Of a stretch of DNA of 21,087 bases, positions 2-21,087 are shown piece by piece. Under the pieces are notes generated by a model. It saw nothing but the letters and a program-made list of their open reading frames with translations, was not told the origin of the DNA and ran no database searches. The DNA is from a virus: the IMG/VR virus record IMGVR_UViG_3300042197_000940, positions 1 to 21,087 of that record; one strand, 5' to 3'. Positions within the stretch are counted from its first letter, which is position 1. Each line of letters begins with the position of its first letter. The translations under genes and the position numbers were made by a program.

Positions 2-1948
2 GAGAGCGCATGGCCTGCGTTGTTCGCCGAGACGTTCGGACAGAACGCTGTCTACGAGAAGACTGGCAACTACGCGCCGCAGAATGCCTACGCCTCGAAG
101 GTCGGCCCTGAGATTATCAAGGCCGAGTTGGCGAAGCGGAACCGCAAAGTACGCCGCGCCATTGATGCCGAATACGAGAGCGACGAGCCGCTCGGATACC
201 AGCATCTCAAGGTGCGTCCGTGGCTGATGAAGGGCGTGACTGAGTCCCGCGCGTACTGCCCGACTGGAGACGGCGGCGGCATTGACAACTCGTGCAGTGC
301 ATCCGACAAGGGCAAGGAGCCAATCCCGGCCGGTGACAAGTCTCTCAAGTCTTACGAGCCGTTCACGCCGAATGAATCAACGCGGAACTCTGACTTCGCG
401 ATCCTTCCGTCCGACGCAGAGGCCGCAGCCGCGCTAAAGGAGCCGCAAAGAGAAAAGTACGGAGCCCATCGAACTCTTCCGGCAGGATATCCGCTCGACT
501 TGCGGATCGACATTCCTGCGTTCGAGAACCATGGCGCGTACGTGGTCACTGCTCACGAGCATGTAAACGGTGCTGGCGTTGGGGCTCCTGTCGGCTACGA
601 CTCGATCATTCGCCTGAAGGGCGACGTTGATTTTCGGGTTGGCGAGACTGCTGCGACGAAGATCGCTCGCGGAAAAACATCCAAGAACACGCACTCGACC
701 GTGAAGGGCAAGTTCGACCCGAGTCGCGACATCCCAGAAGGCATCGATGACTGGACGCCGGTTGGCTACAACCCGAAGACTGCCACGTACTACTACGACA
801 AGCGGAACGGCAAAGAGATCGTCGGCGGCGTCGACTCGATCAGCGTCGGGAACTCCGTGTTTGTGCGGATTCCGAAGTACGGCAACGGACGAGACCCGTC
901 GAAGCCTCCTCGCAATGCGAAGACGGACTACCGATCGGCAGACTGCGGCCGCGACGAGAGCGGCAAGTTCGGCAGCGGTAACGACTGCGCATCAGACGGC
1001 AGCGGCGGCGGCACTGCCACAGCCGCACCCACCGGCGACCGCTGGTCGTCCAACGAGACTGCCGTCTGGCCTGTTTCGTCGCGAGACAAGTCGCCTCCAC
1101 TTCTCGGCGACGGACGCTACGGCTCGATCGAAGTCTCGGCCCCGAAGGCCGTGAAGGCGTCGCTCGACGCGGCTGGCATCGACCCGAAGTTGGCTCCGAT
1201 GGTCGCTGGCGGAAGCGAAGAATCAGACGTCTTCGTCCGCCCTGCCCCGGACTTCTCGATGGAGTTCCCAGGCTCGAAGGTCACGCCTGTGATGTTCGCC
1301 TTTGAGAAGGACTTCGCCGGAGTCGAGAGCGGCCTGCACGGCTCGTCTGTGATTGGCGTCACGGCATCTGGCGAGACTGTCGTCTACCACAGCACGGTCA
1401 ATGTGGCGGACTCGATCAAGTCCGACGACTCGAAGCGGCACGCCGCTGCTCGCGAGTTCTACCGAGCCATGACGTCCTCTGTAGAAGCCGCCCGCAAGGC
1501 TGGAGTCTCTCGGATCGTCCTCAATGCGGCCGGGAACTCGTCGGCCACCAAAGGCAGCGTGACGTCTACGCCGTGGCGTGGGTACACGATCTGGCCCCGA
1601 ATGGGCTTCGACGCACCTCTCCCGGCGAGCATCAAGGCGAAACTCCCGCCAGACTTGTCCCACGCCAAGTCTCTACTCGATCTGCACGCCACGCCCGAAG
1701 GCACAAGGTGGTGGCGCGACAACGGCGAAGACCTCGACGTGTCTTTTGATCTCAAAGACAGGTCGAGTCCGCAGGCCAAGATCATGGACAGGTTCATCAA
1801 GAAGTTCGGCGAGAGCCGTCGCGAAATGCCGCTGGGCTCAGGCGACGAGTGGATGTCTCCCGAAGACCTCGTCCGCCTGGACGAGATGTGGCAGGAGATT
1901 TGGGACGACGGGGAACTGGACGACTACGAGTGGAATGACAATGCCTGA
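2..1948 (+). CDS. Portal-slot head protein, C-terminal part, with two Cys linkers and cargo domains (5' partial)
   Basis: The frame is open to the left window edge, and the TTG at 20 has no Shine-Dalgarno sequence, so I treat the gene as truncated by the window. The first ~80 codons end in an ordinary basic/acidic helical stretch that I do not recognise; the slot just before a prohead protease fits a portal or MuF-type minor head protein, but this is inference. A cysteine-bracketed linker (257-295) follows, then a beta-rich domain (about 380-890) with GYDSI and VGYNP...YYYDKR motifs, which I remember from large polyvalent phage proteins but cannot verify. A second linker (944-988) leads to a GNAT-like domain (about 1230-1790) with GYTIWPRMGFDA and a later RWWRDNG motif. 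The end is very acidic. The stop overlaps the start of the next gene. Confidence 0.6.
   Translation, partial: ESAWPALFAETFGQNAVYEKTGNYAPQNAYASKVGPEIIKAELAKRNRKVRRAIDAEYESDEPLGYQHLKVRPWLMKGVTESRAYCPTGDGGGIDNSCSASDKGKEPIPAGDKSLKSYEPFTPNESTRNSDFAILPSDAEAAAALKEPQREKYGAHRTLPAGYPLDLRIDIPAFENHGAYVVTAHEHVNGAGVGAPVGYDSIIRLKGDVDFRVGETAATKIARGKTSKNTHSTVKGKFDPSRDIPEGIDDWTPVGYNPKTATYYYDKRNGKEIVGGVDSISVGNSVFVRIPKYGNGRDPSKPPRNAKTDYRSADCGRDESGKFGSGNDCASDGSGGGTATAAPTGDRWSSNETAVWPVSSRDKSPPLLGDGRYGSIEVSAPKAVKASLDAAGIDPKLAPMVAGGSEESDVFVRPAPDFSMEFPGSKVTPVMFAFEKDFAGVESGLHGSSVIGVTASGETVVYHSTVNVADSIKSDDSKRHAAAREFYRAMTSSVEAARKAGVSRIVLNAAGNSSATKGSVTSTPWRGYTIWPRMGFDAPLPASIKAKLPPDLSHAKSLLDLHATPEGTRWWRDNGEDLDVSFDLKDRSSPQAKIMDRFIKKFGESRREMPLGSGDEWMSPEDLVRLDEMWQEIWDDGELDDYEWNDNA
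257..295 (+). repeat. Cys-bracketed linker 1 (CPTGxGGGIDNSC type)
   Basis: Encodes CPTGDGGGIDNSC inside the first gene, directly before the polyvalent-like cargo domain. It is the same 13-residue element as at 3423 and 4074, differing at one residue. Confidence 0.9.
944..988 (+). repeat. Cys-bracketed linker 2 (CGRxESGxFxxGNxC type)
   Basis: Encodes CGRDESGKFGSGNDC, followed by a Ser/Gly-rich run, before the GNAT-like domain of the first gene. It is a close relative of the linker at 4691 in the third gene. Confidence 0.85.
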
Positions 1949-4610
1949 AAAATACTCCCACATCGACTTCACGCCTCCCGAGGGGGTCCGCAAAGAAGCC
2001 GAGAAAGGCCTCGCATGGCGTCGCGAGCATGGCCGAGGCGGCACCGCTGTTGGGATCGCCAGGGCGAGAGACTTGGCAAATGGAGTCAAACTCTCGCCGT
2101 CGACGGTTCGTCGCATGAAAGCGTTCTTCGACAGGCACCAGCAGAACAAGGACGCGACAGGATGGGCTCCAGGCGAGGATGGATTCCCATCTAACGCCAG
2201 GATCGCCTGGGCTCTTTGGGGCTCCGACGCCGGATGGGCGTACGCCCGCAAGGTCGTCGAGCAGATGAACGCAGCCGACGAGGAGGAAGGCCGGTCTCTG
2301 CGGCCGTTTGGCTCGACGCAAGGCATCAAGCCCAAGGTCTTCGTCGTCCATGGCGCCCCCGCCAGCGGCAAGACTTCATATGTGATGCAGCACAAGGGCG
2401 AGAACGACGCGATCTTCGACTTCAATAAGGTGATGGCTGCCGTCTCGGGCATGCCTCCGCACCAGAAAAACAAGAATCTCATCTCTTACTGCACCGACAT
2501 TCGAGACCTTATCATCAAAAAGGCCCTGAATAAGCCGTCAGTCGACAAGACTTGGATCATCACGACCAACATCAGCGACGACATGAAGGGCCAGTTGTCT
2601 GACATTCCCGTCGAGTACATCCACATTGACACTCCGAAAGAGGAGTGCCTGAAGCGAATTGAGGAAGACCAGGAACGGCAGCCTATCGCGGATGAGTTGC
2701 GAGAGGTTGTCGAGCGGTATTTTTCACCCGAGCAAAGGAGTGCCCCAGTGCTTCCCAACGTCGAGCGTCGGTTTCTTGGCAATTTCAGCGACGTCGAGAA
2801 GGCCGACCCCGATCTGCTTCGCGTCGAGAAGCGAGCCGACCCCGCTACGGGTCAGCAGCAGACGTACTTGATCGGCTATGCGGCCCGCTTCGGAAAAGAC
2901 TCGTTGCTTCTCGGGGATTTCGTGGAGAGAATTGACCCCGGCGCGTTCGATCTTGTCGAGACACGCCAGGACGGCGAGGGGAGGCCGCTCGAAACTCGCT
3001 GCTTGTTCAACCACGACCCCAATCATCTTTTGGGCCGCTTCCCGACGACGATGAAGATGACCGTCGACGAGAAGGGCTTGCGGTACGAGTGCCTGCTGCC
3101 GGAGTCTCGAAAGGACATCGAAGAACTCTGCCGCCGGGGCGACTTGAAGGGCTCGTCCTTTAGTTTCGTGGTCGCCGAGGGCGGGGAAAAGTGGAGTTAC
3201 GAGGGCGGTCGATCGACGAGGCTTGTAACAAAAATCAAGTCACTTCTAGATTGCGGCCCAGTGACCTACCCCGCGTATGGAGATGCTACTGTTGCCGTAG
3301 CCAAGAGAAGTTACCAGCAGTTCCAGAAGTCTGGACACGCTGAATCTCGCAACAAGACCAAGGCCAAGGTCGCCGAGGAGTTTGCGAAGACGAAGAAGTT
3401 CCTGGCGGAGCGTCGTGGATTCTGTCCGACCGGCCCAGGCGGCGGCATCGACAACTCGTGCGGGACTGGCGGCGCTGGCATTCACGCAACAAGCACGCCC
3501 GTAATGGCTGGCGCTGCCGCAGGTGCGGCGCTCGGAGCAATCGCAGGCGTACCGGGCGCCGTGATTGGTTCTTTTGTTGGGCTTATCGCTGGCGCCGTCG
3601 GCGCCGATCGCTACGTCGCCAAGGTCGAGAAGGCCCTTAAGCGTGTCGGCTCTTCTGTGAAAAAGATCGACACGTTCGCAAAGTCGCTCGGCAAGTCGAT
3701 GCAGATCGAGTCCACAAAGACCGGCGGCATCAAGGCCGAAGGCGGCGGCATGAAGATGACAATCGAGAAGTCCACTGGCGGGAAGATTGCCATTGTGGAG
3801 AACGTAAAGAACGCAATCGGAGAGAAGGGAACAGAGAGCGTTGGTCGACTTGCCGAAACGCTGACCGGAGCAGGCAGGAAACTCGGTGTCGATCACATTG
3901 CTGTTGTTTTGAGTTTCGACGACAAAGACCAGAAGACGTTTGTTGACGCAGGGTTTAAGGGCATTGAGATTTCAAGCGACGGATCAAACGTCACTCTCTG
4001 GAAGTCGTACGACAAAAAGTCCAAGCGAAGCCTCGACGACCTCCGCTCTTTTCTGCAAGAGCGTCGCGGATTCTGCCCCACCGGAGAAGGCGGAGGCATC
4101 GACAACTCATGCACCGCGACTGACGGAAGCAAGCCACAAGGCAGCGGCGGGAAACAAGACAAGCCACGGTCTGGAGGCGGCGGAGGCAAGCAGAAGTCTC
4201 CGCAGAGCGGCACGCCGAAAGTTAAGCCTCCGAAAGAGAAGAAAGAATCCGGCGGCTACATGGAGTGGAAGAAGGGCAAAGACAAAGAAGCCCAAGACTT
4301 CGTTGACCAGGCCCGCGAAGGCCAGTTGGCTCGTGGCGGCAAGTCTGGCGGCAAGTCCGACGATGGCGGCGGAGTCCAGACATGGAGCAAGGGAGACGAC
4401 TTCCCGTGGACGACCAAGCAAGTTGGCACCGACAAGGGCTACGTGCAGGGCCAGCACCCGGACGGGAGCAAGACTGAGAAGTACCCATTCGATGGCGACT
4501 CATCGGAGGCCTACAAGAAAGCCAGCGATGAAATCGCCAAGAAGAAGAACAAGCGGTCTCGTGATGTTGTCCGCGAGACGCTGGCGTTTCTCAAGGAACG
4601 AGCGAGATGA
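1941..4610 (+). CDS. HK97-family prohead protease fused to a helical phage domain, a P-loop kinase-like domain and two linker-cargo cassettes
   Basis: 889 residues; HK97 proteases are usually about 200-250. Residues 1-110 carry a small phage domain (GRGGTAVGIARARDL, then RIAWALWGSDAG) that I know as an uncharacterised head-region domain. Residues 132-265 look like a P-loop nucleotide kinase, with Walker A GAPASGKTS at 138-146. Residues 270-460 are the protease, which cuts scaffold/capsid delta domains: the catalytic His fits H358 in FNHDPNH and the Ser fits S406 in GSSFSF. Cys linkers lie at 495-507 and 712-724. The first is followed by a glycine-zipper hydrophobic segment (about 521-556) and a small domain ending DAGFKGIEI; the second by a Lys/Gly-rich low-complexity tail. 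I chose the ATG at 1941 (alternative 1935), overlapping the previous stop; frame further upstream is shadow. An internal SD-GTG start at 2748 could make the protease alone. Confidence 0.9.
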   Translation: MPEKYSHIDFTPPEGVRKEAEKGLAWRREHGRGGTAVGIARARDLANGVKLSPSTVRRMKAFFDRHQQNKDATGWAPGEDGFPSNARIAWALWGSDAGWAYARKVVEQMNAADEEEGRSLRPFGSTQGIKPKVFVVHGAPASGKTSYVMQHKGENDAIFDFNKVMAAVSGMPPHQKNKNLISYCTDIRDLIIKKALNKPSVDKTWIITTNISDDMKGQLSDIPVEYIHIDTPKEECLKRIEEDQERQPIADELREVVERYFSPEQRSAPVLPNVERRFLGNFSDVEKADPDLLRVEKRADPATGQQQTYLIGYAARFGKDSLLLGDFVERIDPGAFDLVETRQDGEGRPLETRCLFNHDPNHLLGRFPTTMKMTVDEKGLRYECLLPESRKDIEELCRRGDLKGSSFSFVVAEGGEKWSYEGGRSTRLVTKIKSLLDCGPVTYPAYGDATVAVAKRSYQQFQKSGHAESRNKTKAKVAEEFAKTKKFLAERRGFCPTGPGGGIDNSCGTGGAGIHATSTPVMAGAAAGAALGAIAGVPGAVIGSFVGLIAGAVGADRYVAKVEKALKRVGSSVKKIDTFAKSLGKSMQIESTKTGGIKAEGGGMKMTIEKSTGGKIAIVENVKNAIGEKGTESVGRLAETLTGAGRKLGVDHIAVVLSFDDKDQKTFVDAGFKGIEISSDGSNVTLWKSYDKKSKRSLDDLRSFLQERRGFCPTGEGGGIDNSCTATDGSKPQGSGGKQDKPRSGGGGGKQKSPQSGTPKVKPPKEKKESGGYMEWKKGKDKEAQDFVDQAREGQLARGGKSGGKSDDGGGVQTWSKGDDFPWTTKQVGTDKGYVQGQHPDGSKTEKYPFDGDSSEAYKKASDEIAKKKNKRSRDVVRETLAFLKERAR
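2734..2750 (+). promoter_or_regulatory. Internal ribosome binding site and GTG start for a shorter protease
   Basis: AAAGGAG (2734-2740), a 7-base spacer, then an in-frame GTG (2748-2750) exactly between the P-loop domain and the protease domain (codon 270 of the fusion). Spacing and strength are better than for most annotated starts here. It would give a 620-residue protein starting VLPNVERRF. Sequence facts are direct; use as a start is inference. Confidence 0.6.
3423..3461 (+). repeat. Cys-bracketed linker 3 (CPTGxGGGIDNSC type)
   Basis: Encodes CPTGPGGGIDNSC after the helix KFLAERRGF, at the junction between the protease domain and the glycine-zipper cargo. Confidence 0.9.
4074..4112 (+). 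repeat. Cys-bracketed linker 4 (CPTGxGGGIDNSC type)
   Basis: Encodes CPTGEGGGIDNSC after the helix SFLQERRGF, before the Lys/Gly-rich tail. Both this helix and linker match the copy at 3411-3461 almost residue for residue. Confidence 0.9.
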
Positions 4611-6529
4611 GTTTAGAGGCGAGGTACGCCGACCTCCTCGCCTTCGTCGAGGAGCGAGATCGGCAGTTGACTCTGCCAATGGGCGAAGACTGCGGGCGCG
4701 AGTCCGGCCAGTTCGCGCCTGGCAATAACTGTGCGGCTGGTGGCGATGGCCCGCCTGCGACCGATAGTCAGCCTCGCCCTCGTCCTCATCCAGTCGCTGG
4801 AGGCCCGCGATCCAACACGTCGAACGGATTCCCTGGCTCCTGGGGTCGAGATCGTCCGCTGTCGCACGAAGGCCCACTGCCTGGCCTTCCGGACATCAAG
4901 AAGATCGACGTCGACAACGCCAAGCAAGTCACGACCCTTGCTAGGAAAGTAGGGTTCGAGAGCGTCGCGTCGATGGTTCGCTTTGGCGCAGCAGATGGGA
5001 AGAGGTCCGAAATCGAGATCACAGCAGACTCGGAACGGGTGCGTCGCCGGGGGCCGACAGAAGACTCTCCGTCTGTGGTTGTCACGTCCGAGACGCTGAC
5101 GATCGAATCAAAAGCCCCCGTCTACATGGGAGGCGCGAGGCAACCGGGACAGCGCCCCATTGGCATGGTCGAACTCGACTTGGCGATCAAGAAAGAAGGC
5201 GACGATCCGCCTGTCGCGCTGTACGGCTTGTTTAGCGTCGACTACACCGTGAAGTTGGCGATCAAGCGAGAGAAAGAGTCGTCGCAGCACGGAGACTCGG
5301 CCACCGAGCGGCACCTTGGAGCGATGATTATCGACAAGATGCTCGTGTCCCTGGAAGAGGCCGAGAAAGCAGGGGCAGCGAAAGCGAAGACGTTCGCGGC
5401 TGGCAACGAAAACGACTCTACGTTTCAGGGGTATCGGCTCTGGGGGAGGTTTGGTTTTGACGCCGTCCTGTCTGGCGAACTGCGAGATCGGATCATGGAC
5501 GCCAACGACGCTGCCGACTCGCCAATCTTGTCTCAGGAAGTAGCCCAAAAGGTCGTCGAAACGGGCAAGATCACTCTTCAAGACCTCATCAGCACAAAAG
5601 CAGGCGAGAAGTGGTGGTCTAAAAACGGAAGCGGCATCTACTTGTCTCTCGACTTCAGCGACAAGAACAGCCAGGGATACCAGCGGTACAAGAAGATGCT
5701 GGATCGATCCAAGAAAGCCAAGGAGCGAGGCCAGCGATCGTACGAAGACTTCTGCGAGTACGCACTGACGACGTACCGAGACCTCGCCGAGTGGCGAGGC
5801 TTTGCGGACGAGTCCCTTGAGGTTCGGTACGCGAGCCTACTCGCGTTCGCGCAGTCGCGAAACTGTGGCACCGGCGAGGGCGGATTCCAGAAGGGAAACA
5901 CCTGCGCTGGCGGCAAGATCGCCGACGCGGCCGTGGGTGCAGCAAAAGGCGCAATCAAAGGTGCGGCTGTTGCGGCCGGGGCCGTCGGGCCGTTCCCGCC
6001 GTATGTCGTCAAAGGCGCTGCCGTCGGTGCCGCCGTCGGTGCCGTGAAGGGACTCTACGACAACAGCATGCAGCCCACGCGAGTCATGCAGAAGATCGAC
6101 GAGATCGGCACGAGCGAAAAGCAAGTCGCTGATCTCGTGCAGCGTCTCGGCGGCTCGCCAAAGTCTGTCGCGAAGGTCAAGGACGGCAAACTGACGCTTC
6201 GCGTCAATAACAGCAAGGGCGAGAAAGTCTTCGACGTCGAGATGGGCAAGTCGAAGTACACGATCACGCCAGCACGTAAGTCAGGCACGCTGTCCAGCAG
6301 CGAGATCGCTCAAGTCAAGAAGATCGCCGACGAGAACTCCCCAAAAGAAGTGAGCGTCGTCGTGAAGTCCAAGTCGCCCTCGTATGTGGCGAAACTTGTC
6401 CGGAAGGGGTTCCAAGTCACAGCCAACGCTGCGGGCATGCTCGTTGCGACGGTTGTTCTCCCGACGTCTGCATCGGTTGCAGTCGCGATGGGAGAAGGCG
6501 TGGTGGATTCCCTGAAGAAAAAGAAGTGA
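4607..6529 (+). CDS. Two-cassette head-accessory protein (GNAT-like cargo plus glycine-zipper cargo)
   Basis: 640 residues, function not established. It is built as two parallel cassettes. Cassette 1: helix SLEARYADLLAF (2-13), Cys linker (29-42), Pro/Gly-rich spacer, then a GNAT-like domain (about 95-390) with a GMVELDL strand, RHLGAMIIDKML helix, AGNEND, GYRLWGRFGFDAV (from 275) and later EKWWSKNG; these last motifs match the C-terminus of the first gene. Cassette 2: helix SLEVRYASLLAF, Cys linker (420-433), a glycine-zipper stretch (about 436-482) and a small domain with KLVRKGFQV. No intact acetyl-CoA loop is obvious, so catalysis is unproven. ATG overlaps the previous stop (ATGA), suggesting coupled translation. 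Lys-rich end. A role as an internal or ejected virion protein is my inference. Confidence 0.75.
   Translation: MSLEARYADLLAFVEERDRQLTLPMGEDCGRESGQFAPGNNCAAGGDGPPATDSQPRPRPHPVAGGPRSNTSNGFPGSWGRDRPLSHEGPLPGLPDIKKIDVDNAKQVTTLARKVGFESVASMVRFGAADGKRSEIEITADSERVRRRGPTEDSPSVVVTSETLTIESKAPVYMGGARQPGQRPIGMVELDLAIKKEGDDPPVALYGLFSVDYTVKLAIKREKESSQHGDSATERHLGAMIIDKMLVSLEEAEKAGAAKAKTFAAGNENDSTFQGYRLWGRFGFDAVLSGELRDRIMDANDAADSPILSQEVAQKVVETGKITLQDLISTKAGEKWWSKNGSGIYLSLDFSDKNSQGYQRYKKMLDRSKKAKERGQRSYEDFCEYALTTYRDLAEWRGFADESLEVRYASLLAFAQSRNCGTGEGGFQKGNTCAGGKIADAAVGAAKGAIKGAAVAAGAVGPFPPYVVKGAAVGAAVGAVKGLYDNSMQPTRVMQKIDEIGTSEKQVADLVQRLGGSPKSVAKVKDGKLTLRVNNSKGEKVFDVEMGKSKYTITPARKSGTLSSSEIAQVKKIADENSPKEVSVVVKSKSPSYVAKLVRKGFQVTANAAGMLVATVVLPTSASVAVAMGEGVVDSLKKKK
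4691..4732 (+). repeat. Cys-bracketed linker 5 (CGRxESGxFxxGNxC type)
   Basis: Encodes CGRESGQFAPGNNC near the N-terminus of the two-cassette protein; relative of linker 2 at 944. Confidence 0.85.
5864..5905 (+). repeat. Cys-bracketed linker 6 (CGTGxGGFxxGNxC type)
   Basis: Encodes CGTGEGGFQKGNTC between the two cassettes of the third gene. It is intermediate in sequence between the CPTGxGGG and CGRxESG types, linking the two classes. Confidence 0.85.
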
Positions 6530-6807: not shown

Positions 6808-8301
6808 ATGGAATCGTCCGCCAAGATCAAGTCTCTTCTCGACGAACTCGCCGCTGTACTGGCTGAGATGGGCGCCCTTCAGGACGAGGTGTCCGACGAG
6901 CGCGCTGAGACCGTTCCGCCCGTTGATGGCGAGGACGAGGAGATGGAAGAGGACGACGTCGAGGAGAAGGGCTACAAGCCCGAGGGCGTCGAGGACGCCG
7001 AGGGTGCGATGCCCGAGGACGAGGAGAAGGAGAAGAAACTCCGCTGCCTCTGCGAACGTGCGGAGAAACTCCGCGAGAAGATCAAGTTCTACGAGGGCGT
7101 TGCTGCCAAGGAGTTGGAACTCCGGGCGGTCCTCGACAAGTCTACGCCCGCCACGGATTCGGCGGTCGCTTCTTACCCCAAGGCCAAGGAGGGCCGGTCT
7201 GTGTCGATCTACCACAATCTGCCGGGTGCCGGTCGTCTGAAGAACTTCAAGGGCCAGAACGCCGAAGAGCGTGCCTATCGGGCCGGTCAGTTCTATCGGG
7301 CCACGCTGCTCAAGGATCAGAACGCCGCTCGGTGGTGTGCCGATCACGGCGTGGTCGACAGCCGCGCCCTGAGCGAGGGCATCAACTCGGCTGGCGGAAT
7401 CTTTACTGCGGAAGAGGTGCTGAACGAGGTGATCGTTCTGGTCGAGACGTACGGGGCCTATCCTGCCCACGCTCGCAACCTCCAGATGAAGTCCGATACG
7501 CTCGTTATTCCTCGTAGGACTGGCGGTTTGAAGGCGTACTTTATTGGCGAGAACAGCCAAGTGCCGGATTCCGACGCGAGTTGGGATCGGGTGCAACTCG
7601 TCTGCCGCAAATGCGCGGTCTCGAACCGGATGAGTTCGGAGATTTTGGAAGACTCCGTTCTGAATCTTGGAGACTACATCACTGGCGAGATCGCCCGGTC
7701 TCTTGCCGAATTGATCGACACCGTCGGCTTTGTCGGGAATGGCAGCGGGGATCACGGTTCGATGATCGGCGTAGCCACCAAGATCAACGACGGCACCCAC
7801 ACGGCTGGCGTCGTGACGGCTGCGACCGGCAACACCGGGGCTCTGACTCTGGACGTGGACGATCTGATCGCCACGGCTGGCCGACTCCCGCTGTATGCCC
7901 GTGCCAACGCCAAGTGGTTCGTGAATCCGGCCGTGTTCGCCGCCAGCGTGCAGCGTCTCGGCCTGGTCAACAACGTGGGCCTCTCGGGCGGCAACACTGC
8001 CGCGAACCTCGCGGCTGGCGCCGAGATGCGGCTGCTGGGATATCCGGTGGTTTTCGTACACACCCTTTCGAGCGCTGTGGGCGCCGACCCCGGTGTTGTG
8101 AAGTTCCTCTTCGGTGACCTCTCGATGAGTTCGTACTACGCGACTCGCCGGGGCATGACGCTGAAGACCTCGACCGACCGCTACGCGGAACTCGATCAGA
8201 CGCTGATCGTTGCGACGAGCCGCTTCGACTGTGTCACCGCTGACTGCGGCGACAACACGAAGGCTGGTCCGGTCGTGGCTCTCAAGACTGCTGCTTCGTG
8301 A
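6808..8301 (+). CDS. Major capsid protein, HK97 fold
   Basis: 497 residues, building the icosahedral shell. Residues 1-105 are a highly charged coiled-coil region with a long acidic stretch, matching the delta (scaffold) domain that the upstream protease removes in this family. From about 120 the HK97-fold body follows: SEGINSAGGIFTAEEV (about 188) as the N-arm/E-loop region start, GGLKAYFIGE beta strands, the long spine helix NLGDYITGEIARSLAELID and the P-domain-type FVGNGSGDHGSMIGV (about 308). The C-terminal part includes GYPVVFVHTL and a surface strand, FLFGDLSMSSYYATRRG. Clear RBS AAGGAA eight bases before the ATG. Position after the protease supports the call. The cleavage site cannot be placed exactly. 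Confidence 0.93.
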   Translation: MESSAKIKSLLDELAAVLAEMGALQDEVSDERAETVPPVDGEDEEMEEDDVEEKGYKPEGVEDAEGAMPEDEEKEKKLRCLCERAEKLREKIKFYEGVAAKELELRAVLDKSTPATDSAVASYPKAKEGRSVSIYHNLPGAGRLKNFKGQNAEERAYRAGQFYRATLLKDQNAARWCADHGVVDSRALSEGINSAGGIFTAEEVLNEVIVLVETYGAYPAHARNLQMKSDTLVIPRRTGGLKAYFIGENSQVPDSDASWDRVQLVCRKCAVSNRMSSEILEDSVLNLGDYITGEIARSLAELIDTVGFVGNGSGDHGSMIGVATKINDGTHTAGVVTAATGNTGALTLDVDDLIATAGRLPLYARANAKWFVNPAVFAASVQRLGLVNNVGLSGGNTAANLAAGAEMRLLGYPVVFVHTLSSAVGADPGVVKFLFGDLSMSSYYATRRGMTLKTSTDRYAELDQTLIVATSRFDCVTADCGDNTKAGPVVALKTAAS

Positions 8302-8350: not shown

Positions 8351-8785
8351 GTGAATCATCTCGAAGGTACGAAGACTTCTGCAAGGATTTCGACGAGCGT
8401 GGCCGTGAACGCGACCCACAGTCACGAGATCGACACCTACGGCGCCGACTACGTGTCGGTCGACGTGGTGTACAGCCACTTCACCGCTGCGGCGTCCTCG
8501 TACGCCACGGTGCTGAAGGTGCAGCAGAGCGACACGGCTGGCAGCGGCCAAGTTGACGTCCCCGGCTTCTCGGTGGTGGCTGGTGCCGGTCGGACGACCG
8601 GCGTCGGCGCGACTGGTGCCGTGGCTCGGTTCAACATCGACTGCCGTGGCAAGCGGCGGTATCTCACGGTCGTCACCACTCCGGGTCAGCCCGCTGCCGT
8701 TGCGACGGTGGCTCGGCTCTCGAAGTTGGAAGAGATGCCGACCGAGAAGAACGCTGCCGGTGTCGACGCTTTCGTGAGCGGTTGA
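8351..8785 (+). CDS. Putative capsid decoration/head protein
   Basis: 144 residues, beta-strand rich, with alternating hydrophobic residues (DYVSVDVVYSHF, YATVLKVQQSD, RYLTVVTTPG). No membrane segment or catalytic motif. Its slot immediately after the major capsid gene and its all-beta look fit a capsid-surface or head accessory protein, but identity rests mainly on context. GTG start with GGAG (8337-8340) ten bases upstream; no ATG alternative fits as well. It stays in the head operon, 49 bases after the capsid gene. Confidence 0.6.
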   Translation: MNHLEGTKTSARISTSVAVNATHSHEIDTYGADYVSVDVVYSHFTAAASSYATVLKVQQSDTAGSGQVDVPGFSVVAGAGRTTGVGATGAVARFNIDCRGKRRYLTVVTTPGQPAAVATVARLSKLEEMPTEKNAAGVDAFVSG

Positions 8786-8854
8786 GGCAAGTTTCGGGGG
8801 GGAGCCAAACTACGGGCGGCTCATCCACGGATGGTCTTGACTGGGCATGGACGC

Positions 8855-8892
8855 CCAAGCCGCCTCTTTGTTTACTCCATCAAGAGGCTTGG
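8855..8892 (+). promoter_or_regulatory. Hairpin that encloses the ribosome binding site of the glycosyltransferase-like gene
   Basis: CCAAGCC (8855-8861) plus TCTT (8865-8868), with a GCC bulge, pair with AAGA/GGCTTGG (8882-8892) around a 13-base loop; an alternative GCCTCTT/AAGAGGC pairing also exists. The right arm contains AAGAGG, the only SD-like sequence before the ATG at 8899, so the structure could hide the RBS. No T-run, so not a normal terminator. The stretch 8786-8898 has odd codons if read as coding and is better viewed as leader. Confidence 0.5.
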
Positions 8893-8898
8893 GTTTAC

Positions 8899-9684
8899 AT
8901 GCGAGTTATCGTCGGCAACGTAGAGCATGATGTCCGAATCGCGGGCGCGATCAGCGTTCCGCGATTAGGCTTTATGGACAATTATTATTGTTCCATTCAA
9001 GCCTTCTCTCAGTTCGGCATCCCGCTCACGAAAGGCACCGGGGCCTTCTGGGATCAAGTGATGTCTCGGATTCTCACGGACTTGAGTCGTGAGGAGGCCG
9101 GGTATGACTTCATCATCACGATGGATTACGACTCCGTATACGAGCCCGAGTGCATCTCGCGGCTCGTGTCGGCTGCTCTCTTGTCTGGATACGACGCCGT
9201 GGCTCCGCTTCAGACGAAGCGGGATGACCAGAAGTTGATGTTCACGCCCAAGGGCATGTCTGGAGACCACGACAGCAAGATCACCTTGCCTCTGGAGTGG
9301 TGGGAAAAGCCCACTCAGCCCGTGGACAGCGCTCACTTTGGCCTGACCGTGCTGCGGACGGCGGCTCTTCGCCGCATGCCGAAGCCATGGTTTCTGGGCG
9401 TGCCCAACTCCGACGGCGACTGGGCGGACGTCGAGCCCGGCGACGGCAAGACGGCTCGCGTCGATCCGGACATTTACATGTGGCGGAAGTGGCGGGAGTG
9501 CGGCAACACGCTGGCGATCTGCCCTCAAGTCTCGATCGGCCACGCGGAACTCGTGATCACCTGGCCGGATCAGCAACTGAAGGCCGTGCATCAGTATCCG
9601 AATCACTACTGGCAAGCAGGCGGGCGGCGACCACCGGAGGCGTGGGGTTCTCCTGAGCATGCAGCAAAGTGTGAGGCTAAGTAA
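8899..9684 (+). CDS. Glycosyltransferase-like protein (GT-A fold, DxD)
   Basis: 261 residues. It begins with a basic strand region (VRIAGAISVPRLGFMDNYY) typical of small GT-A glycosyltransferases, followed by helix and FIITMDYDSVY, where D76-x-D78 is the metal/nucleotide-sugar DxD candidate, then DAVAPLQTKRDD and a later acidic stretch DGDWADVEPGDG. I chose the ATG at 8899; the frame could extend to a TTG at 8782 that overlaps the previous stop, but that stretch looks non-coding and forms a hairpin. It sits between head genes, so it may modify a capsid or decoration protein; sugar and target unknown. Family call moderately sure, function inferred. Confidence 0.65.
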   Translation: MRVIVGNVEHDVRIAGAISVPRLGFMDNYYCSIQAFSQFGIPLTKGTGAFWDQVMSRILTDLSREEAGYDFIITMDYDSVYEPECISRLVSAALLSGYDAVAPLQTKRDDQKLMFTPKGMSGDHDSKITLPLEWWEKPTQPVDSAHFGLTVLRTAALRRMPKPWFLGVPNSDGDWADVEPGDGKTARVDPDIYMWRKWRECGNTLAICPQVSIGHAELVITWPDQQLKAVHQYPNHYWQAGGRRPPEAWGSPEHAAKCEAK

Positions 9685-19243: not shown

Positions 19244-19615
19244 ATGCTCAACATCAGTCAGTTCAAGAAAAAAACTCCAGCGAACAAGACTGAGCAAGTC
19301 GTCCAGTTTCGCCACAAAGACGCGCAGCGAATTGCCTCAGCAGTTCACGCACACGAGACTGCGAGACGTGGTCGCAACCCAAGCACGCTCCCGCGAGCCG
19401 CTGGCGGCGGGGGCAGCGCGTTCGCGACGGCAAGGTTCACCGGCGCTTGGAGCAAAGACACCCTAAAGACCGTCACGTTCATTGCAGACACTGCCGCCAC
19501 GGCCGTCGCCAGCAACATCTTCTCGAACATCGCCGCGCCGCCAGGGAACGGCTCTCGTCGCTGCGGGCTTGCGCTGGAGGGAACGACTTGGATTCTCATC
19601 GCCGCTGAGTGCTAG
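19244..19615 (+). CDS. Small tail-associated protein of unknown function
   Basis: 123 residues. A basic N-terminus (MLNISQFKKKTPANK) is followed by a His/Arg-rich helix and Gly-rich linker, then a compact beta-type domain: FATARFTGAWSKDTLKTVTFIADT...GLALEGTTWILIAAEC. Not recognised as a named family. The ATG is one base after the previous stop. I read it as part of the tail-tip operon. Confidence 0.6.
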   Translation: MLNISQFKKKTPANKTEQVVQFRHKDAQRIASAVHAHETARRGRNPSTLPRAAGGGGSAFATARFTGAWSKDTLKTVTFIADTAATAVASNIFSNIAAPPGNGSRRCGLALEGTTWILIAAEC

Positions 19616-19617
19616 TA

Positions 19618-21087
19618 ATGAACTTTGGTTTCGAGTGCTTCCGGAAACTGATCTGCTGCATTCCGAAGATATACGGGTGGGGGAATAACGGCTTCGGCCA
19701 GTTAGGCCTCGGCGAGGGCTCAGGCTACAAGTCCGACATGTCTCTGCCGGGCACAGGGCCGCCGACCATCGATAAGCAGTCGGACTGGATCAAGGTCTGC
19801 TCGGGAGGGCTTCGAGGGTACGGGATACGCTCAGACGGGACGCTGTGGGGGTGGGGTACTCTCGTCTCCTCTGCGGGGTACGGCGTTGGCTGGCCTCCCG
19901 GCGACGGCGTCGCCGAGAACTACTCCCATCCGGTCCAGATCGGCGTCGGCCACCAGTGGATAGACGTCTCTGCGTCTTATTCGCACACACTGGCTGTGCG
20001 AGAGGATGGCACGCTGTGGGCGTGGGGCTCAAACAGCCAACATGCGCTCGGCACGCATCTTCGATACCTTCGCGGCACGGCGATAGGCCACGCCGAAGAG
20101 GCGATCCGGGCGGTTCTTTCGAGACCGATTGCGTCGGCGGGCATCGGCACCGGCCAAGGCAAGTACTCCAAAAAGCCGACCGCTCAAGTCGTGCAGATGA
20201 AGAAAGACTCGCTCGGCAGCGATTGGGTCGTGGACGACAGCATCTCGCCGACTCCGGCCCAAGTCGAGGCCGTTCTGGACTACACGGTCACTTCGGTGGA
20301 GTTGACCAACGGCGGAGGTGGATACACGTCCACTCCGACGGTGACGATAGACGGCGACGGTTCGGCGTCAGTCAGGCCGAACATGACGTTCAAGGTCGTC
20401 AGCGTTCGAGTAACCAACGGCGGCTCTGGGTACACGTCTCGGCCGACTGTGATTGCGCCTGGGTGGTTGGGGTCGGCGACGATGGAAGTTTCCGCGATGG
20501 GCAGCGTCGTCGAGAGCGTCTTGGTCACAAATCCTGGAAGCGGATATATCAAGCCGCCGTCCGTGACTATAAACGGCGCTCTGACGTCAAGCCTTGCCGC
20601 CGTCATTGTGAATGGAGCAGTGTCTCGCGTCGACGTTGCCGCAGGGTTCAAGATAGACGCCGAGTCTGCTTCGATAGGCTTCGTTGGCGGAGGCGGCTCC
20701 GGGGCAACGGCCCAGGCGACTCTTCGCATGAATCATGTCGTTGCCGTCAGAGCCATATCCCAGGGGTCATTCAATAGGAACGACTATTTCTCGTCTGAAT
20801 GGACGACCCCGGTGACGTTCTCAGGCCCCGGTGCAGGCGCCACGGCGAGTGTTGTCTTTGGCGACGGATACGTTAACTCGTTGACGCTCACTCCAGGCGA
20901 CGGCTATCGCGAGACTCCGGCAATAGCGTTTTCAGGCGGCGGCGGAGATGGAGCGTCGGCAGAAGTAGTCAGCACCGAAGGCGAGGTCGAGTCGGTCACC
21001 ATTATTTCGGCCGGAGGCGGCTACACTCGCAGCGAGGCTGGCTTTCTCCGGCGAGCCCCGTTCGTGCAATTCACTCGCGACCCTGAA
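19618..21087 (+). CDS. RCC1-like repeat tail-tip/fibre protein (3' partial)
   Basis: Open to the right edge for 490 codons. The N-terminal ~145 residues hold two RCC1-like blades: YGWGNNGFGQLGLG (from 19), DGTLWGWG (about 72) and HTLAVREDGTLWAWGSN (about 122). From about 220 to the end lies a series of Gly-rich beta repeats with the theme VxSVxVTNGGSGYTSxPTV. No catalytic motif. Such propeller plus beta-repeat proteins suit an adhesin or receptor-binding tail protein; the target is unknown. ATG two bases after the previous stop, with no clear SD. A 310-codon overlapping frame here is Arg-rich shadow. Confidence 0.65.
   Translation, partial: MNFGFECFRKLICCIPKIYGWGNNGFGQLGLGEGSGYKSDMSLPGTGPPTIDKQSDWIKVCSGGLRGYGIRSDGTLWGWGTLVSSAGYGVGWPPGDGVAENYSHPVQIGVGHQWIDVSASYSHTLAVREDGTLWAWGSNSQHALGTHLRYLRGTAIGHAEEAIRAVLSRPIASAGIGTGQGKYSKKPTAQVVQMKKDSLGSDWVVDDSISPTPAQVEAVLDYTVTSVELTNGGGGYTSTPTVTIDGDGSASVRPNMTFKVVSVRVTNGGSGYTSRPTVIAPGWLGSATMEVSAMGSVVESVLVTNPGSGYIKPPSVTINGALTSSLAAVIVNGAVSRVDVAAGFKIDAESASIGFVGGGGSGATAQATLRMNHVVAVRAISQGSFNRNDYFSSEWTTPVTFSGPGAGATASVVFGDGYVNSLTLTPGDGYRETPAIAFSGGGGDGASAEVVSTEGEVESVTIISAGGGYTRSEAGFLRRAPFVQFTRDPE
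20296..21050 (+). repeat. GGxGYTSxP-type beta repeats
   Basis: About seven units of 30-45 residues within the last gene. Clear copies carry NGGGGYTSTP (20308), NGGSGYTSRP (20418), NPGSGYIKPP (20528), PGDGYRETP (20893) and AGGGYTRS (21007); two degenerate copies lie between (about 20640 and 20760). Each has a preceding VxSVxV strand and often a following Gly-rich GxGA run. Confidence 0.75.

Follow-up and report, generated by a model that had tools for sequence, protein, structure and literature searches.

The IMG/VR record IMGVR_UViG_3300042197_000940, whose 21,087 bases make up the whole window analysed here, is a fragment of a tailed phage that holds the end of a large protein, an S78 prohead protease gene, a third protein, and genes for the major capsid protein, a head-tail connector and tape-measure proteins. 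Within its first three open reading frames (ORFs), the first of which is truncated by the contig end, lie six short linkers, each bracketed by two cysteines and each followed by a cargo module. All six had been predicted from the sequence alone, and all were confirmed and are in frame. Comparison with other viral contigs makes it likely that such linkers serve as headers of cassettes, in proteins of the head interior, across a large set of tailed phages. The features of the window that bear on this reading are as follows.

2..1948, + strand: ORF1, the C-terminal 648 residues of a polyvalent protein truncated at the contig start; holds linkers 1 and 2
257..295, + strand: linker 1, CPTGDGGGIDNSC, in frame
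296..943, + strand: cargo, beta-rich module; tblastn homologues in Roseobacter phage CRP-9 and MW202701
944..988, + strand: linker 2, CGRDESGKFGSGNDC, in frame; junction of a cassette deletion or insertion relative to record G403
989..1945, + strand: cargo, GNAT-like module; AlphaFold2 (AF2) model with mean predicted local distance difference test score (pLDDT) 81; weak, consistent GNAT matches in the PDB
1941..4610, + strand: ORF2; in order, phrog_2859 module, AAA_33 kinase-like domain, S78 domain, linker 3, glycine-zipper module, linker 4, Lys-rich tail
2334..2678, + strand: AAA_33 kinase-like domain of ORF2; Pfam E 1.6e-4, under the curated cut-off
2841..3329, + strand: Peptidase_S78 prohead protease domain of ORF2; E 1.8e-30
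3423..3461, + strand: linker 3, CPTGPGGGIDNSC, in frame; another cargo stands behind the linker in L023
3462..4073, + strand: cargo, glycine-zipper module and C-terminal domain; PF13441 E 0.004, weak
4074..4112, + strand: linker 4, CPTGEGGGIDNSC, in frame
4113..4607, + strand: Lys/Gly-rich tail with an LxFLxER helix at its end, read from sequence
4607..6529, + strand: ORF3, 640 residues; a helix first, then linker 5
4691..4732, + strand: linker 5, CGRESGQFAPGNNC, in frame; N-terminal header at residue 29 of ORF3
4733..5863, + strand: cargo, second GNAT-like module; homologous to 989-1945 (251-bit profile match)
5864..5905, + strand: linker 6, CGTGEGGFQKGNTC, in frame
5906..6526, + strand: cargo, Ala/Gly-rich zipper-like module; matches no family
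6808..8301, + strand: major capsid protein, HK97 fold; PF05065 E 8.4e-34; without a linker

Because the start of ORF2 (1941) overlaps the stop of ORF1 and the start of ORF3 (4607) overlaps the stop of ORF2, the three ORFs are probably translated as a coupled set. The original prediction took all three for head proteins; they do form a probably coupled group of head-module genes, but the first product is not itself a recognised head protein and in relatives lies between the portal and S78 genes. Uncut relatives of ORF1 in that position are 2,477-2,929 residues long and carry 7-9 linkers, and window ORF1 is the end of such a long multi-linker protein. In its loose form, the motif of linker 1 occurs three times in the window, compared with no occurrence in 100 dinucleotide shuffles.

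The linkers form one virus-specific family. The three motif types, C(P/A)TGxGGG(I/V)DN(S/T)C, CGTGxGGFxxGNxC and CGRxxxGxFxxGNxC, fall into length classes of 13, 14 and 15 residues and are bridged by graded intermediates (CATG forms, CPTGEGGGVKNDC, CPTGEGGGIDPTC and CVRDPSGRFGEGNKC); the types that had been listed separately are all present, but as variants of a single family. In scans of 2.9 million viral contigs, the strict CPTG form turned up in 101 stretches and the CGTG form in at least 119. A profile made from these recovered 500 copies in 309 ORFs and 223 loci of uncultivated phages, at least three of the counted copies (L014, L073 and L089) being false matches in antisense frames. When the sequence on both sides of each copy was recorded, as had been proposed, varied carriers and 59 cargo families emerged. 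One protein of 2,929 residues holds nine linkers, the maximum for a single chain, and one head operon holds as many as 13. Behind each header comes a flexible stretch rich in Gly, Ser and Asp, and then one cargo module, typically of 130-350 residues.

To remove search bias towards cysteine, scans were made with patterns free of it. The CPTG core scanned in this way returned the same 101 stretches and no additional copies, while the CGTG core added one listed stretch, a chance match in a 33-residue frame. In the fetched loci, both cysteines were kept in 337 of the 337 unique copies found with Cys-free patterns. Elsewhere cysteine is scarce: it makes up 0.29% of residues outside linkers, 130 of 191 inter-linker modules have none, and every one of the four cysteines in window ORF1 is inside a linker. 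Such invariance in the Cys-free scans, together with this scarcity, places the pair under strict selection at the protein level.

The proposal of a system of swappable cassettes gained strong support from a comparison of linker pairs. Two sequences were counted as homologous upstream if identity over the 80 residues before the linker reached at least 50%; the 80 residues behind it were then classed, and points in the same ORFs served as controls. Given homologous upstream sequence, the downstream sequence was unrelated, homologous or intermediate in 268, 110 and 116 linker pairs, compared with 43, 1827 and 268 control pairs, so that the unrelated share was 54% at linkers and 2% at controls. 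The converse arrangement, homologous downstream and unrelated upstream, was found in 84 of 280 cases at linkers and 54 of 2,500 at controls. Cargo thus differs among related phages rather than being invariant.

Individual junctions could also be located. L071 and L172 differ by one extra module that lies between two linkers in L071; the outer DNA is near-identical, and the linker DNA is almost identical at both ends. In G403, the closest relative of the window, the DNA left of linker 2 has its counterpart at the linker ahead of an ADP-ribosyltransferase (ART)-like cassette, with 85-86% identity (0.21-0.35 to the other candidate). To the right of linker 2, the counterpart in G403 is instead the linker of the following gene, 1.1 kb further on, with 80-92% identity except for one less similar 45-base stretch. 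The first 21 bases of these two G403 linkers are identical. This switch of match from left to right, with the shared 21 bases, shows that the window and G403 differ by loss or gain of the 1.1-kb cassette, which is ART-like by our reading of its motifs, together with a gene boundary, and that the joint lies within the linker. Alignments of relatives show that modules have been gained, lost and swapped exactly at the linker, and whole cassettes have been inserted or deleted between two headers.

The position of linkers within proteins is polar. In 28 of 195 ORFs, no more than 45 codons separate the first linker from the upstream stop. The last linker comes within 45 codons of the ORF stop in only 2 of 188, and of these two at least one is a false antisense match. 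Linkers can therefore open but almost never close a protein, a pattern that points to a header for the cargo behind it, more than a joint. ORF3 is an example, with a 28-residue helical start, linker 5 and then cargo. A conserved helix ahead of every linker was considered and rejected, because a helix-like signature precedes the linker in only 34 of 358 contexts.

Modules are strung behind a portal protein, behind an S78 prohead protease, or stand as separate genes of the head operon. The parts ahead of the first linker include at least four portal families (Phage_portal, Phage_portal_2, Portal_Mu and P23-45), S78 proteases and MuF proteins. Among linker-bearing ORFs of the fetched loci were 63 HK97-type portals, 24 lambda-type portals and 39 S78 proteins, and linkers were found in 0 of 77 capsid and 0 of 8 tape-measure ORFs of the same loci. 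Portal and prohead protease face the interior of the prohead, and the carriers of linkers therefore face inward. The head operon of G403 illustrates the arrangement, with one linker in the portal, seven in a 2,477-residue protein, one in a 451-residue protein, two in the S78 fusion, two in the ORF3 homologue and none in the capsid protein. G405 likewise has 13 linkers, nine of them in a single 2,929-residue protein.

Cargo segments of at least 80 residues numbered 470 and fell by single linkage into the 59 families, 33 of them singletons. Pfam searches with 125 cargo representatives matched ART-PolyVal (10), ADPrib_exo_Tox (9), ART (4), zeta toxin (2) and also GNAT families, and a PHROGs search added Alt-like ADP-ribosyltransferases; most cargo is without a named family. 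Many cargoes are host-directed and often toxin-like, for example ADP-ribosyltransferases, zeta-toxin kinases and GNAT-like domains. The idea of effector modules accordingly holds for relatives, whose repertoire is that of polyvalent and effector proteins, but within the window itself only a GNAT-like fold was found. The modules at 989-1945 and 4733-5863 are likely GNAT-like, the first on the basis of modelling and the second as its homologue: most PDB neighbours of the 989-1945 model are GNAT acetyltransferases, the toxins TacT2 and AtaT among them, but scores are weak (the best E is 0.005, and most TM-scores fall below 0.4). By extension these modules may be effector-like. The 296-943 module has tblastn homologues (E 9e-7 and 3e-10) that lie between portal and coat genes in CRP-9 and MW202701, without linkers. 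Podovirus proteins between portal and coat genes (L227 5437-8421 and L228 4114-8301) contain the module and have no linkers.

The linker is close to absent from bacterial genomes. Across the genomes of 84,980 species, the strict CPTG form had no match and the CGTG form had two, in a Singulisphaera acidiphila DSM 18658 prophage and in a contig of a betaproteobacterial metagenome-assembled genome; a mainly non-viral distribution, which would have spoken against the original prediction, was not found, and a cellular origin of the linker was rejected. The Singulisphaera copy clearly belongs to a prophage portal gene, in which the portal protein is followed by the linker, repeats and a C-terminal domain that may be nuclease-like. 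A looser pattern run over 392 genomes of the same phylum found the Singulisphaera copy alone. In this portal (L223 2176-4956), a long run of KPNAST repeats lies between the linker and the C-terminal domain. Searches of 50,697 phage records by tblastn with linker queries of 22-24 residues, which are so short that sensitivity is low, gave nothing convincing, and a 50%-identity match in the human faecal phage MT835746 proved not to be a linker.

Some other parts of the window deserve mention. The N-terminal part of ORF2 (1956-2276) matches phrog_2859, and because the same module occurs at residues 651-757 of the linker-bearing portal fusion L131, modules ahead of the protease seem to be mobile too. 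The AAA_33 kinase-like region (2328-2738) matches phrog_4581, a family annotated as terminase small subunit, a name that may be a misannotation. A protein between the capsid and connector genes (8782-9684) has a weak match to glycosyltransferase family 2 (E 7e-4). The last ORF (19609-21087), which is truncated, has RCC1-type (regulator-of-chromosome-condensation) matches followed by repeats that match many virion structural families, and is possibly a host-contact protein.

Taken together, we propose a model in which the header, a 13-15-residue peptide with an invariant cysteine at either end, stands ahead of each cargo module. Because portal and protease face the prohead interior, cargo would be assembled within the capsid and, on the pattern of T4 Alt and of fusions to MuF and portal proteins, delivered with the DNA. 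In its least certain step, the header may mark where cargo is detached from its carrier by prohead proteolysis, or may act as a redox- or metal-stabilised clasp between modules. Processing is our tentative first choice for the meaning of the cysteine bracket; such a site fits portal-fused cargo, which would need release before exit through the tail, and also fits headers at protein starts. It is possible, and we hold it with some doubt, that the peptide is a dedicated cargo-handling element, acting as a redox switch or as a site of processing or release, that serves phages with four portal families, detaches and delivers several effectors per virion and doubles as the joint for cassette recombination. 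Several observations weigh against the model. The cassette pairs are drawn from related contigs and lack independence, but the contrast between linkers and controls is very large. Packaging, cleavage and delivery are predictions for these phages. S78 was found in only 30 of the 51 records examined, and some portal-bearing linker records have no S78, S49 or ClpP match, which weakens the idea of a single S78-specific cleavage site for all linkers, bearing in mind that the records are fragments. Finally, linker pLDDT values of 46-64 in two models leave a stable clasp on its own unsupported; structure prediction, one of the checks originally proposed, gave a model of the 989-1945 cargo at the mean pLDDT of 81 listed above but no confident fold for the linker, even when the linker was predicted alone.

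One alternative is a purely structural clasp, in which the cysteine pair, as a disulfide or metal site formed alone or pairwise between subunits, makes a compact bead that insulates or stabilises modules in the virion with no cleavage. The two cysteines never vary, although most other positions differ from class to class; cysteine is otherwise depleted; and AF2 pairs residues 9 and 15 of the linker 2 model in a small strand bridge. Yet the low-confidence predictions, the failure of the linker profile to match any PDB chain, and linkers near the N-terminus of separate proteins, where there is no module pair to insulate, make this reading rather unlikely. Another is a capsid-loading tag, in which the linker, often with a preceding helix, attaches to scaffold, protease or shell and so brings each cargo into the prohead, in the manner of the capsid targeting sequences of T4. 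N-terminal header polarity, headers that open ORFs in head operons and the T4 precedent (PMC9026906) agree with it, but cargo fused to a portal or protease requires no added tag, up to nine copies per chain would be redundant, and the helix-like signature is too rare; we regard such a tag as unlikely.

The linker might instead be nothing more than conserved DNA for in-frame cassette recombination, with no role in the protein. Junctions do fall within linker DNA, in stretches of shared sequence, and synonymous diversity is somewhat under background in the 13-residue (1.18 vs 1.46 bits) and 15-residue (1.04 vs 1.38) classes, which probably derive from a smaller number of lineages. In the 14-residue class, however, synonymous entropy at linker positions is at background (1.46 vs 1.48 bits), copies differ in codons but keep their residues, and DNA homology alone cannot yield absolute conservation of cysteine. 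A DNA-only site as the sole role is thus improbable and was rejected on these two grounds; selection acts on the linker peptide, and DNA similarity among headers is probably a by-product exploited by recombination. Most improbable of all is a self-processing element, intein-like or Asn-cyclising, whose first cysteine and Asn-x-Cys end would act as catalysts of cleavage or ligation. Nearly all copies do begin with Cys and have Asn two residues ahead of the final Cys, but 13-15 residues are far below the size of a splicing domain, and, of the 177 copies in the 13-residue class, 6 have Pro in place of Asn (IDPTC). An intein, HINT or other self-splicing element was rejected for its size and for these variants, in which the obligatory C-terminal Asn is not kept.

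A signature of 13-15 residues at cargo starts in uncultivated phages offers a simple finder for new phage-delivered effectors, most of which match no family. In-frame gain and loss of modules in polyvalent head proteins become visible at junction resolution. A linker that turned out to act as a signal for release or loading could serve to place chosen proteins into phage heads.

Several known systems resemble this one in part. Polyvalent proteins (Iyer et al. 2017, PMC5512222) are long multidomain proteins of portal-terminase phages, in which MuF or portal domains carry fused effector domains; the proteins are predicted to be packaged and injected. The relatives of ORF1 share this architecture, with several distinct domains in one polypeptide of a portal-terminase phage (the window itself has S78 and capsid genes), and ART-PolyVal, named after polyvalent proteins, is among the cargo. 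PMC5512222 describes no constant linker, and the words "linker" and "cysteine" are absent from its text, whereas here one cysteine-bracketed peptide stands ahead of nearly every module, serves as the exchange site and is also carried by the S78 protease. MuF polymorphic toxins of temperate phages (Jamet et al. 2017, PMC5576092) join a head protein to a swappable C-terminal toxin, including ADP-ribosyltransferases, and small ORFs that follow are proposed to be immunity genes; that text likewise contains neither "linker" nor "cysteine". In contrast to one toxin behind MuF, the system described here has chains of up to nine linkers on mostly portal or S78 carriers. Few linker proteins contain MuF, none of the three window proteins matches an N-terminal MuF domain (PF04233 or relatives), and head genes follow downstream in the window.

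In phage T4, the divergent internal head proteins IPI-IPIII share a short constant leader, the capsid targeting sequence, which has been proposed as a means by which T4-like phages load various proteins; T4 Alt is a packaged ADP-ribosyltransferase (PMC9026906). About 10 residues suffice there, at the N-terminus, and they are removed by the prohead protease gp21; the part of that account used here mentions no cysteine bracket. The present peptide recurs within fusions, most copies being internal and 28 of 195 ORFs beginning with one. Pre-toxin domains (PT-VENN) and releasing peptidases of polymorphic toxins (Zhang et al. 2012, PMC3482391) provide a constant element beside a variable toxin, thought to be a processing site, but these are domains rather than peptides of 13-15 residues, and the VENN motif is absent from the tabulated linker columns and from the linkers of the window. 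In the open-access literature searched, which leaves most subscription journals outside its scope, we found no account of a cysteine-bracketed linker. Effector domains on head proteins, short targeting peptides and constant elements beside variable toxins are all known already, and the cysteine-bracketed headers are best filed as a variant of phage polyvalent or polymorphic effector proteins.
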